A DNA stretch of 48,788 nucleotides from Candidatus Culexarchaeum nevadense (GTDB lineage: Archaea > Thermoproteota > Methanomethylicia > Culexarchaeales > Culexarchaeaceae), in NCBI GenBank assembly GCA_025060975.1, contig JANZKA010000005.1, positions 1 through 48,788 of the forward strand, given 5' to 3'. Shown one piece after another: positions 12,649 to 17,442 of the stretch (the stretch's first letter is position 1; each line of letters starts with the position of its first letter). The position numbers were made by a program, and so were the translations under genes. Under the pieces are notes generated by a model. The model ran no database searches and was not told the origin of the DNA. It was given only the letters and a program-made list of their open reading frames with translations.

Positions 12649-13167
12649 CTAAATTATCATCACATGATTTGACTCACAGTAAATAGTTATATCAAATAGT
12701 GAAGCTAAAAAACCTAGGAATTTTGGAGAGAATACTAAGGCATTATCAATAGATAGTGTTCCCCCATTGAAGATGAGTATCAATTTTAATGATGAAAACC
12801 TACATACCCTCAACACCATCTTAACCCTCTCCAAAAACATTTTTATGGAAACCTTGTATAATGGCATAAAACTATTACCTCTAGCTTGGAGGAAGATAAT
12901 TGATGGCAAGTAAATTATTGAATCAATACCTTTACCAATAAACTTAAAGATATCATATGGATTTAGAGGTGTACAGCACTCAACTATATACTGAGAATCC
13001 CTAAAATGCGCATTTAAAGGTTGAGGAAACTCAGATAATATCAAAACTCTATCCATAACACCAACTATGAAAAGGAAAAATCGAAGTGCATCAGAACCAA
13101 AAACGAATATCGATTGAATATCACTTGAAATCAACATATTCAAAGCATCTTCAAATGCCATCCTCAT
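12649..13167 (-). CDS. Putative degenerate RecA/Rad51-fold protein (no Walker A/B)
   Basis: 172 aa; order of predicted strands/helices tracks the RadA core (see findings); overlaps upstream SWIM gene. Confidence 0.5.
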   Translation of the reverse strand: MRMAFEDALNMLISSDIQSIFVFGSDALRFFLFIVGVMDRVLILSEFPQPLNAHFRDSQYIVECCTPLNPYDIFKFIGKGIDSIIYLPSIIFLQARGNSFMPLYKVSIKMFLERVKMVLRVCRFSSLKLILIFNGGTLSIDNALVFSPKFLGFLASLFDITIYCESNHVMII

Positions 13168-13522
13168 TTAACTCGCCCCGAAGCATCCTCCATAAAATCA
13201 CGCTACCAACATGTGTACATACATTCCTCATCCTAAAATGACCGTAAAGCTTATGTTTAGAGTAACATGTACAGAAATATCTCCCCGAACTCTTCACAAA
13301 ATAGACTACGTAAAATGGTTCACGATCCCCGAAATATGCTCTACCCCTAACAATCCAAACCCTCGACTTCTCAACTTCACTTACATCCATAAGTCTAGCC
13401 CTACAGCGATTAAACCATGATGAACTTTTATTATGAAATTTTAACATGAAACACTTAAATAAATCAGAATCACAAGACATCCACAACCCCATCCTCACAT
13501 ATTGCGAAGAACGCATGTTCAC
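13151..13522 (-). CDS. SWIM zinc-finger protein
   Basis: RYFCTCYSKHKLYGHFRMRNVCTHVGSVI = CxCx15CxH SWIM signature; real start probably internal (13480 or 13447). Confidence 0.8.
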   Translation of the reverse strand: MNMRSSQYVRMGLWMSCDSDLFKCFMLKFHNKSSSWFNRCRARLMDVSEVEKSRVWIVRGRAYFGDREPFYVVYFVKSSGRYFCTCYSKHKLYGHFRMRNVCTHVGSVILWRMLRGELNEDGI

Positions 13523-14462
13523 CTTTAGGTAGATAGGGACTATCCTCTACAACCATTTTCCTAACGAGATGCTCCAACCCCCTTTTCACATTACTTAACG
13601 ATGAATGTTGCAAGAATAATCTGTGAGTTGTACCATGAGCAACAACATTCCCACCAGCAGCGGAAACAGACCCACCAGCAGTTGGTTTGGATATTATCTG
13701 ATTAGTTACAATGACATAAACGTTGTAGAGCATTGCTATACGCATGAGGAAGTTCAACATATAGTTGAGGGTCTGCTGCCTAGCTACAAGCATTTCCCTA
13801 CCCCTATACTCAGCACGGACATGGGAAACAAGACCATCAAGTACTATCAACTTAACATTCTTTTCCTCAATCAAGTTTGGTGCAATGATTCTAATACAAT
13901 CTATTTGCTCATCAACATTAACAGGCTGAGATACAAAGATACCTCTAAGTGGGTCACTCAAATTAAACCTTTCAGCTATTCTACATATCCTAGTCTCAGA
14001 AAATGTTCCTTCACAATCAATGTATAATACCTTGCCATCAACACCACCATTATTAATAGTTAGCTGAGCTGTAACAGAAAGTTGGAAACATAATTGCGAC
14101 TTTCCAGAACCATATTCCCCAACAAACTCATATATACATCTAGGCTCCAAACCACCTCTTAAAAGACCATCTATAGAAGAAACCTTAGTGGATATTCTTG
14201 GAAGCCCCCTCCTATAACTCGAAAATTCAGTAGCACTTATAATCTTACTTTGATGGAAAGCCTCCCTCACACTATATAAAGCTTTACTCAATCTCGAGTA
14301 ATCAGTTACATCCATCATAGAAGCCAATTCATCCAAACTGTAAAGTGAAAGTTGTTTTGGACTTAATATTCCAATCTTCCTAAGTTTCTCAGCCGTGCTT
14401 GGACCTATGCCAGGGATATCCTCTAAACAAGAGTATTTACCGCTCAAAACCTCCACCCCCAA
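13470..14462 (-). CDS. radA: DNA repair/recombination ATPase RadA
   Basis: HhH N-terminus (LEDIPGIGPSTAEKLRKIGI), Walker A GEYGSGKS, Walker B VKLIVLDGL, VTNQI. Confidence 0.95.
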   Translation of the reverse strand: MGVEVLSGKYSCLEDIPGIGPSTAEKLRKIGILSPKQLSLYSLDELASMMDVTDYSRLSKALYSVREAFHQSKIISATEFSSYRRGLPRISTKVSSIDGLLRGGLEPRCIYEFVGEYGSGKSQLCFQLSVTAQLTINNGGVDGKVLYIDCEGTFSETRICRIAERFNLSDPLRGIFVSQPVNVDEQIDCIRIIAPNLIEEKNVKLIVLDGLVSHVRAEYRGREMLVARQQTLNYMLNFLMRIAMLYNVYVIVTNQIISKPTAGGSVSAAGGNVVAHGTTHRLFLQHSSLSNVKRGLEHLVRKMVVEDSPYLPKGEHAFFAICEDGVVDVL

Positions 14463-14814
14463 TCAAGTTTCTCAACCAATTTAAATGTAGAATAACTCTA
14501 TCCAGCTCATTAACCAATGATGGTGCATCATTAACCAATAGAGAACCAATACTCTCAAGAGCTTTAATGAAAGCTTTAAACTCATCAATATTAATAATAG
14601 ATTCAAAAACTATCTTCCCACCATACATTCCAAATTTTAACATCCTCTTCGGATAAATCTTCAAAGTTAAACCAACCTTATCCTCCACCAATCTAAATGA
14701 TAAGAAAGCCACATACTTCTCATGAACTTTTATTGGAATCATGAAGCCCCTGGCATCATTATCCCAAACCACGAATCTAGACAATTCACCTATCACCCGA
14801 CTCGGAATATTCAT
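14437..14814 (-). CDS. Hypothetical protein in radA operon
   Basis: 125 aa, overlaps the HerA-like ORF by 29 bp upstream and radA by 26 bp downstream. Confidence 0.6.
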   Translation of the reverse strand: MNIPSRVIGELSRFVVWDNDARGFMIPIKVHEKYVAFLSFRLVEDKVGLTLKIYPKRMLKFGMYGGKIVFESIINIDEFKAFIKALESIGSLLVNDAPSLVNELDRVILHLNWLRNLIGGGGFER

Positions 14815-16126
14815 TCATAACTGCAATACCCATCGGAGAAATTCTAAGATAATATTTCCCATCACGATGAACCCCTTCAATTATCAAACCATTAACTGAA
14901 AGTGTTGTCAAAATCTTCTTAGCCTCTGTAGCATTCAAACCATAAACACCAGTAATATAACCTATAACTAAATCCCTCTCAACAGTTCCCTGAGATAGAA
15001 ATGAGAGAACACTATACGCCAAATCAGCTTTAGAGCCAAACAACTTAACTAAAGTATTCTGTTGAGAAGGCTTTAGAGGTTTAAGTTCATCAGCAACTTC
15101 GAATACACCTTTAAACTCAAATCTACCACTATAATTTGCAAGCTTAACATCACCATCTTTGAAAACCATGAAGTAAACGTCATCATCAATATTAATAGAT
15201 TTGAAAGCACTTAAATCATAAAAGCCAGAAGTGAAACTGCGGAGGAGATTATCCAGCACATCTTTAGACCTTGGGATAGGAGCAAAAGCAATATCAATGA
15301 TAAACTTGATTTTGGAATTTAACCATGATGGACTATCACAGGATAGTAAGATATACTTGGATTCATTCTCATTAATTAGATAATAGAAGATCATTGAACG
15401 TTCAAAGGAAATAGCATACTCCTCACGTAAAGCTCTAGACATTTCCGGAGCTATAATATCAGCATTCTCAATCAATATGAAATTAAATTCCTTTCGAAAC
15501 TTCATTAACATCAATAATGATGAGAGAACCCTAAACTCCACAGGTAAATGGCTAACATCAACGATAATTAAACTTGAATTCAAATTGGAAAAACCATGCA
15601 TTGAACTAAATGATGAACCAATACGTCCAACAGACATTAAATCAAGAAGTCTTAACAATTTATGAACATAAGGATAAGATCTTGAAATTAAACTTTGAGA
15701 TTCAACTTCGGAAATAACATCGGAAATGGAGAACTCTAAACCACCCTTTAAAATTAAGCTAATGAGAGACTCCTGTAAAACCCTAGCTGAATCTTCACCT
15801 AAATGAAAACTTAACTTGAAAATGTCAGAGACAAACTTAGCTTCAGTATATGGATCATCTAAATCAAATTTGAAAGGATTTATGGAAGCATTAAATCCAA
15901 GCTTCAACAACTTAGCATCCTCAAATACGTTACATAGATACTTGTATAAACCACTTGAATCTACAATCAAAATGCGCTCCCAATCAGCACAATCAATTAT
16001 GGAGTAATTCACCTTAACCCTACTCCGCATAGGACCAAAGGAGCCGAGAACAAGTTTTCCCTCGCTGCAAAGTAAATCAACTAAATTTACACACCCAACA
16101 TTTAAAGGAAAATTGAACACTATCAA
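14786..16126 (-). CDS. Degenerate HerA/VirB4-like (FtsK-HerA superfamily) pseudo-ATPase with C-terminal winged helix
   Basis: PLNVGCVNLVDLLCSEGKLVLGSFGPMRSRV at the GATGSGKS position; RILIVDSSGLYKYL; NASINPFKFDLDDPYTEAKFVSDIFKLSF; FNFILIENADIIAP at the Walker B position; wHTH-like C-terminus. Confidence 0.55.
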   Translation of the reverse strand: MIVFNFPLNVGCVNLVDLLCSEGKLVLGSFGPMRSRVKVNYSIIDCADWERILIVDSSGLYKYLCNVFEDAKLLKLGFNASINPFKFDLDDPYTEAKFVSDIFKLSFHLGEDSARVLQESLISLILKGGLEFSISDVISEVESQSLISRSYPYVHKLLRLLDLMSVGRIGSSFSSMHGFSNLNSSLIIVDVSHLPVEFRVLSSLLMLMKFRKEFNFILIENADIIAPEMSRALREEYAISFERSMIFYYLINENESKYILLSCDSPSWLNSKIKFIIDIAFAPIPRSKDVLDNLLRSFTSGFYDLSAFKSINIDDDVYFMVFKDGDVKLANYSGRFEFKGVFEVADELKPLKPSQQNTLVKLFGSKADLAYSVLSFLSQGTVERDLVIGYITGVYGLNATEAKKILTTLSVNGLIIEGVHRDGKYYLRISPMGIAVMNEYSESGDR

Positions 16127-16713
16127 ATCACCCCCTGAACTACGGGGAAAACTTGAGAAATAACCTCATCACCACTCAAAACAACAACACTATCAGCTGG
16201 AATAGAAAGTGAAAGTGAATTGAGTATTTCAATAAGCTTAGACATAGCGGAACCTAAAGCGTGAAACCCAACTTTAACATATAACAGCAGAATATAGGAT
16301 TCACTAGAACCTTCACCACCCCTAAAAATCAAATGATAATTAAATGGAACACCCAAAAGGATATTCCTAAGTAGAGTAAGATCTCTAACATTGCGGAATA
16401 GTAAAGCCCCAAAAATATAGGTGAACCCCATTGAACTGGAAACAAGTAACAGTTTATCAGAAACCTTAAATTTAAATTTCAAATCAACTTCCCTAAAGTC
16501 ATTTAAATCTAAATTCGTGAATAAGAACTCCCTAAAATACTTTGATGTTTTAACATCATTAAATCCTGGAAAGCTGAGCTTACCTTTATAGGCAAGCTTA
16601 TAGGCGATTAATAAAGCGATCACAGGGATGGATAACATTAAAGATAACATTGGATTTACCAAAAATATCAGAAACCATGCTAATAGCATTATAGGAATCC
16701 ACATATCAACCAT
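16123..16713 (-). CDS. Membrane protein, two N-terminal TM helices plus soluble domain; partner of the HerA-like protein
   Basis: MWIPIMLLAWFLIFLVNPMLSLMLSIPVIALLIAYKLAY; 4-bp overlap with downstream ORF. Confidence 0.65.
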   Translation of the reverse strand: MVDMWIPIMLLAWFLIFLVNPMLSLMLSIPVIALLIAYKLAYKGKLSFPGFNDVKTSKYFREFLFTNLDLNDFREVDLKFKFKVSDKLLLVSSSMGFTYIFGALLFRNVRDLTLLRNILLGVPFNYHLIFRGGEGSSESYILLLYVKVGFHALGSAMSKLIEILNSLSLSIPADSVVVLSGDEVISQVFPVVQGVI

Positions 16714-16815
16714 AAGAAGATAAACAAAAATCAGAAATAAAGTTGGTTTAGATGTTCGACGAAAACGGCGAAAAACGAATATCCTATTTCAAACGAATAA
16801 TTTATGTGAAGAGAG

Positions 16816-17442
16816 TTGGATTGTCAATTAAATATTGAAGACATGAAAATCCTCAGTGAAGAAACTAGGGTAAAGATAATTAAACTACTATACGATAAGG
16901 GAGAACTTGGATTAAACGAAATAGCAGAACAAATAAAGAAGGCAAAATCAACAACATCAGAACATTTGAAAATACTACTAGAAAGCGAGTTCATAGAGAG
17001 AATACAAGTTGAGAGGGGATACAGATATAAATTGGCTGAAAAAGGGGTAAAAGCTGTAAAAATGCTGTATGAAAGTGAAAATATAAAACTTCGGAAAAGA
17101 TCAACTGGAGCATATATTCAGAGAATATTAAGGCAAAGGGGTGTATGGATTCAATTCGCAATACCAGTAATAACTGGAGCATCAATGACCATACTTAGCG
17201 GAATATCAAACATAATCATAGCACTATCAATACTAAATGGAATCCTCCTCGGAATAATGAAATCAAAATTCATAGACGTAGTAATTGGAGGAATCATATT
17301 CTCATTTATAACATCAATAGTATCAGCAGGGAAAATAGGGATACTTGCAATACCAATAACACTGACACTATCAATAGTAATATATATTTGTGTAGGAGGA
17401 TTAACATGGATAATAACTAGATTGGTGATTAAACATGGTTAA
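16816..17442 (+). CDS. ArsR-like winged-helix regulator with C-terminal TM region
   Basis: LSEETRVKIIKLLYDKGELGLNEIAEQIKKAKSTTSEHLKILLESEFIERIQVERGYRYKLAEKG followed by hydrophobic helices; TTG start. Confidence 0.8.
   Translation: MDCQLNIEDMKILSEETRVKIIKLLYDKGELGLNEIAEQIKKAKSTTSEHLKILLESEFIERIQVERGYRYKLAEKGVKAVKMLYESENIKLRKRSTGAYIQRILRQRGVWIQFAIPVITGASMTILSGISNIIIALSILNGILLGIMKSKFIDVVIGGIIFSFITSIVSAGKIGILAIPITLTLSIVIYICVGGLTWIITRLVIKHG

Follow-up and report, generated by a model that had tools for sequence, protein, structure and literature searches.

A six-gene archaeal operon encoding a RadA paralog and a SWIM-domain protein as a candidate recombination-mediator module

Gene content and organization of the locus

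The window analyzed in this study, a stretch of 48,788 nucleotides from Candidatus Culexarchaeum nevadense (assembly GCA_025060975.1, contig JANZKA010000005.1), harbors a string of six genes whose products are, in order, a membrane protein, a HerA/VirB4-like protein, a 125-aa protein (here p125), a RadA paralog (here RadA2), a SWIM-domain protein, and a third protein of 172 aa (Table 1). The sequence-only reading of this DNA had been confined to the last three genes, whose coordinates, on the minus strand, it gave correctly and whose gapless, overlapping arrangement is borne out by measured overlaps of 11 nt (RadA2/SWIM) and 17 nt (SWIM/172-aa protein). Its description of a minimal complex is too narrow, as three further co-directional, overlapping genes are located upstream of that encoding RadA2, and the unit is thus one of six genes, two of which encode the HerA/VirB4-like pseudo-ATPase and the membrane protein.

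Conservation of the gene order in related genomes, which the earlier reading had put forward as a check, was evident, with the same order and frames being retained in relatives. Furthermore, within-genus dN/dS values of 0.07 to 0.27 for every gene of the string are indicative of purifying selection, and it follows that all of these genes specify genuine proteins. Such selection, coupled with the conservation of motif, order, and frames in relatives, argues that the string is more than a chance arrangement. The gene encoding an ArsR-type regulator starts approximately 100 bp from the six-gene string and faces it divergently. A description of this operon was not found in the searchable literature, which covers little of the subscription literature.

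Table 1. Features of the six-gene string and its divergent neighbor; positions are those of the window
Feature	Position	Strand	Basis
Gene unit (six genes)	12649-16713	(-)	
172-aa protein, probable RecA fold without P-loop, putative pseudo-ATPase partner	12649..13167	(-)	AF2/Foldseek
SWIM-domain protein, 109 aa (ATG start)	13151..13480	(-)	conserved family; weak PF04434 matches
SWIM zinc-binding motif, CTC-x15-CTH	13211..13273	(-)	
RadA2, with HhH domain and intact Walker A and B	13470..14462	(-)	PF08423 1e-54; outside canonical clade; motifs
RadA2 Walker A, GEYGSGKS	14097..14120	(-)	
RadA2 residues 74-77, IISA, at the site of the FxxA polymerization motif (Phe lost)	14232..14243	(-)	
p125, 125 aa, four strands and helices, possible ssDNA binder (weak)	14437..14814	(-)	
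HerA/VirB4-like protein, 446 aa, without Walker A, C-terminal winged helix	14786..16126	(-)	profile vs PDB; hhalign
Membrane protein, 196 aa, first gene of the string	16123..16713	(-)	N-terminal hydrophobic segment 1-43; position conserved
Intergenic region, presumed promoter region	16714..16815	.	inferred from divergent gene arrangement
ArsR-type HTH regulator, divergent, hydrophobic C-terminal half	16816..17442	+	PF01022 2e-11; hydrophobic stretches

Properties of the encoded proteins

The genome contains four matches to PF08423, the best of which (311 bits, contig C10) represents its canonical RadA, while the window copy (187 bits) is a paralog. The latter had been taken for the replicative RadA, a designation that cannot be upheld given the higher-scoring RadA encoded elsewhere in the genome and the non-canonical nature of the window copy, which lacks the polymerization Phe. 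Its candidacy as the main recombinase of the genome was ruled out by the difference in score (311 versus 187 bits), its tree position, and the lost Phe. In a RadA tree of 74 rows, constructed by a quick method, the canonical RadA of the genome is placed inside a 36-row core, alongside sequences of Bathyarchaeia and Lokiarchaeota; the operon copies all fall outside this canonical core but do not form one clade.

The Phe residue of the FxxA motif is lost in each of the 30 sampled operon-linked RadA copies and kept in 35 of the 36 canonical-core copies. Operon copies retain Walker A and Walker B (VKLIVLD in the window) and, in nearly all cases, the HhH motif, while in loop L2 the FFG(D/N)P segment is for the most part missing. 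The equivalent Phe is also absent from human RAD51C, and 5' capping of RAD51 filaments is proposed to be forced by this absence (PMC10366140). The loss of this Phe, shared with RAD51C, is the strongest argument in favor of a mediator role of RadA2 and against its assignment as the replicative RadA.

Assignment of the product of the adjacent gene as a SWIM protein, as proposed from the sequence, is supported by the presence of the chelating CxC..CxH residues, the SWIM criterion applied to Shu2/SWS1, in 22/22 relatives including the window, and by weak matches of 7 of these 22 family members to the Pfam SWIM domain (PF04434; best E value, 0.003). The open reading frame has an alternative GTG start at position 13522, which would yield a protein of 123 aa. 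The Shu2/SWS1 signature CXHXXA contains an Ala three residues past the His (PMC6316741). This Ala is absent in the window (CTHVGS), the position being occupied among the relatives by Ala in 16/22 and by Ser in 6/22, and a search of the PDB with the SWIM family profile (A8) gave no match at E values of up to 10. Within the window's class, Methanomethylicia, the SWIM protein is encoded by 12 of 40 genomes, with all 12 copies located directly downstream of the RadA paralog.

No Walker A motif is present in the 172-aa protein. Its AlphaFold2 model (14-row alignment; pLDDT 79, pTM 0.79) retrieved P-loop-NTPase-like alpha/beta proteins in a Foldseek search of the PDB, with the RecA family and its look-alikes leading (Elp456, 2e-4; RecA, 1e-3; RAD51-XRCC3-RAD51C, 2e-3; RadA, 3e-3) and with CobU, Sak4, and KaiC also among the matches, query TM scores being mostly 0.45 to 0.59. 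The proteins encoded at the corresponding position in four relatives (L043, L052, L067, and L068) match RadA by profile (97.6%), and that of L043 harbors an intact Walker A motif, GEAGAGKTT; across relatives, the P-loops of the third proteins are intact, degenerate, or missing. For the window's own 172-aa subfamily, neither RadA nor these four proteins were matched significantly by profile, and a search of its family profile against the PDB returned nothing. As unambiguous relatives with a RecA fold were part of the alignment supplied to AlphaFold2 and may have biased the model, the fold is likely rather than proven. A Walker-less RecA fold, as suggested by the sequence-only reading, is the best structural reading of the AlphaFold2 and Foldseek outputs, and the 172-aa protein, as modeled, probably adopts a P-loop-less RecA fold, with profiles matching nothing for the window's version.

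Pfam and NCBIfam searches yielded nothing above noise for the 172-aa protein, p125, the HerA-like protein, or the membrane protein of the window. The profile of the 446-aa family, when compared to the PDB, matched VirB4 (9e-4), STIV B204 (0.012), and a PadR winged helix (1e-3), and hhalign aligned it with a membrane HerA/VirB4-like family at 98.6 to 99.1%. The Walker A P-loop is absent from all 14 aligned members. The possibility that this gene and that of the membrane protein together represent a split membrane HerA/VirB4 protein was considered and found no support, since the HerA part matched at 99.1% and the membrane part at 0.3%. The conserved operon member p125 is encoded in 28 of the 40 genomes of the window's class; its model (pLDDT 70, pTM 0.55) comprises four strands followed by helices, a topology which fits PC4/Whirly, but weakly so, as the Foldseek matches to PC4 and Whirly structures had E values no better than 0.14.

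Distribution of the operon and related loci

Besides the window's class, the gene order recurs in three other Thermoproteota families. Outside the class, the complete order from the membrane protein to the third protein is found in the Thermoprotei MAG B15_G16 (G344), the order without the third protein in B15_G2 (G360), and that from the HerA-like gene onwards on a short contig of G384. A SWIM-less core is present in family f6 (Methanomethylicus-type genomes), a Geoarchaeota MAG, and families f47 and f51, and some f6 operons retain a third gene whose product, by eye, resembles a degenerate RecA. Because the SWIM gene is missing from many genomes which retain the other operon genes (family f6), the SWIM protein is dispensable to whatever the core does. 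Outside the class, p125 and SWIM occur together more often than expected (6/8 versus 61/361 genomes; Fisher p 4e-4, with related genomes counted separately and no correction for relatedness). No SWIM match was detected among 10 Asgard genomes, a group for which there was no positive control. The operon flanks are constant in the window's family and order, consisting of core genes for a radical SAM protein, a Trm112-like protein, and a CinA-like protein, and a divergent HTH gene accompanies most operon loci of families f1, f2, f4, f6, f8, f47, and f51.

A number of variant loci were also observed. Operons outside the class may carry an extra downstream gene (L097:6026-6523, L098:40-387, and L112:3781-4149), the product of which contains a C2H2 zinc finger and a coiled coil and ends in a conserved NPWxxVL tail. 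Clusters of a HerA (DUF87) ATPase, an approximately 194-aa SWIM protein, and a distant RadA paralog were identified in family f18 (L103, L104, and L106). SWIM genes are multi-copy, with up to 6 per genome in f18 and 11 in one f34 genome, and are perhaps mobile. At L100:4194-5332, a SWIM gene is overlapped by one for a KaiC-like protein of 265 aa, and the genome in question has its HerA-like/p125/RadA2 operon elsewhere (L258). Families f52 and f66 (L114, L264, and L267) display a rearranged module of genes for an unknown protein, a SWIM protein, a RadA paralog, and a 170-aa protein that is PD-(D/E)XK nuclease-like by eye; a HerA-like gene is present in the f52 module. The genome G026 possesses a second p125/RadA-paralog locus on contig C37 (L281), in addition to that on contig C1. 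Finally, a p125-like gene (E value, 3e-5) adjoins a SWIM gene in family f34 (L265:4304-5068), where the stretch that was read contains no RadA2 or HerA-like gene.

Proposed function and comparison with known systems

We propose, with a probability of roughly 0.55, that the operon encodes a chromosomal recombination-mediator module which works like the eukaryotic Shu/RAD51-paralog complexes and which is possibly membrane tethered. RadA2 is predicted to bind ATP and DNA without FxxA docking on a neighboring subunit. As it lacks such docking, RadA2 would act on filaments of the canonical RadA encoded elsewhere in the genome, which it may cap, nucleate, or stabilize, rather than forming filaments of its own. 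Together with the SWIM protein, the 172-aa protein, with its probable P-loop-less RecA fold, is presumed to form a partner subcomplex of RadA2, comparable to SWS1-SWSAP1 and Shu2-Psy3-Csm2. Contact with ssDNA may be provided by p125, tethering of the complex by the HerA/VirB4-like pseudo-ATPase and the membrane protein, and control of operon expression by the divergent ArsR-type protein. In favor of this reading are the conserved, overlapping gene string and its recurrence in other families, the placement of every SWIM gene of the class next to the RadA paralog, the loss of the FxxA Phe with retention of both Walker motifs, the parallel with RAD51C, the RecA-fold model of the 172-aa protein, and the co-occurrence of p125 and SWIM. 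Speaking against it are the many f6 genomes that have the core but no SWIM gene, the failure of the 172-aa subfamily to match RadA by profile, the failure of the SWIM profile to match a solved chain, and the presence of HerA-like and membrane components that are foreign to Shu complexes.

Since the core resembles membrane DNA translocases, albeit without the motor P-loop, the main rival explanation is a DNA-uptake or -exchange module, in which the membrane and HerA/VirB4-like proteins would stem from a Ced-like translocase and in which RadA2, the SWIM protein, and p125 would receive the ssDNA that enters the cell and load it for recombination. The proximity of the HerA-like family to the membrane HerA/VirB4-like family (99.1%) is consistent with such an origin, as is the core of membrane protein, HerA-like protein, p125, and RadA2 being older and wider than the SWIM part, and a precedent exists in the Ced systems, where the HerA/VirB4-type CedB is coupled to DNA import (PMC11868833, PMC9905601). 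However, DNA cannot be pumped by a HerA-like protein that is devoid of Walker A, the N-terminal part of the membrane HerA family has no counterpart in the membrane protein by profile (0.3%), and no pilin or channel gene was recognized in the operon. We regard uptake or exchange as rather unlikely.

An opposite effect on recombination, whereby RadA2, the SWIM protein, and the pseudo-RecA protein dismantle or block RadA filaments, appears improbable. A RadA2 which is predicted to bind ATP and DNA but which lacks the docking Phe would end filament growth, and antirecombinase activity has been reported for one RadA paralog of archaea (McRobbie 2009, as cited in PMC4080772). Promotion and inhibition are, however, inseparable from sequence, and RAD51 assembly is promoted by those RAD51-paralog/SWIM complexes that have been studied to date (PMC6316741). 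That the locus is a mobile-element or defence-related cluster which carries recombination genes by happenstance is highly improbable, for although in f18 Thermoproteota several SWIM genes lie in the vicinity of HerA and of a distant RadA paralog, and the divergent regulator resembles Csa3/CasR winged helices, the same core genes flank the operon in the window's family and order, PADLOC returned nothing for the operon proteins beyond one weak match of RadA2, and the operon genes are under strong purifying selection.

RadB and aRadC are archaeal RadA paralogs which are thought to regulate the main RadA and which lack the N-terminal DNA-binding domain (PMC4080772). RadA2 is likewise a second RecA-family protein beside the main RadA; unlike RadB and aRadC, it keeps the HhH motif and is encoded within a SWIM/HerA-like operon. 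Within the RAD51C-XRCC3 (CX3) complex, RAD51C retains ATP binding and lacks the docking Phe, as does RadA2 (PMC10366140). In contrast, CX3 has no SWIM subunit, the partners of RadA2 are other proteins, and capping by RadA2 is inferred. The 446-aa protein shares, by profile, the fold of the HerA, VirB4, and CedB ATPases, from which its family differs in the absence of Walker A (14/14 aligned), its C-terminal winged helix, and its separately encoded membrane protein.

The operon also resembles the Shu complexes (SWS1-SWSAP1 and Shu2-Psy3-Csm2-Shu1), in which a SWIM protein is likewise found beside RecA-fold proteins, one of them without Walker motifs; the archaeal third protein (172 aa), a probable RecA fold, is similar in size to SWSAP1 (229 aa; PMC6440994). 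The archaeal operon differs in encoding a RadA paralog of full length together with p125, a membrane protein, and a HerA/VirB4-like pseudo-ATPase, HerA-like and membrane subunits being absent from Shu complexes. The SWIM signature of the window, moreover, ends in Ser, and a PDB profile search detected no homology to Shu2/SWS1 beyond the motif. Common descent with SWS1/Shu2 is not claimed, as one signature position fails in the window and no homology beyond the motif was found; the likeness would be one in way of working. It seems doubtful that the operon represents an archaeal membrane-anchored Shu forerunner, composed of a polymerization-deficient RadA paralog, a SWIM protein, and RecA-fold and HerA-fold pseudo-ATPases, that is related by descent to SWS1-SWSAP1.

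Recombination mediators which combine RAD51 paralogs with SWIM proteins are known from eukaryotes. The operon described here bears on the origin and the smallest working set of such mediators. In encoding a SWIM protein and a decayed partner of the RecA fold alongside a RadA paralog devoid of its polymerization hook, a prokaryotic operon would offer small proteins with which models of capping and loading may be tested. It would also link a membrane protein and, unexpectedly, a HerA/VirB4-like pseudo-enzyme to the control of recombination.
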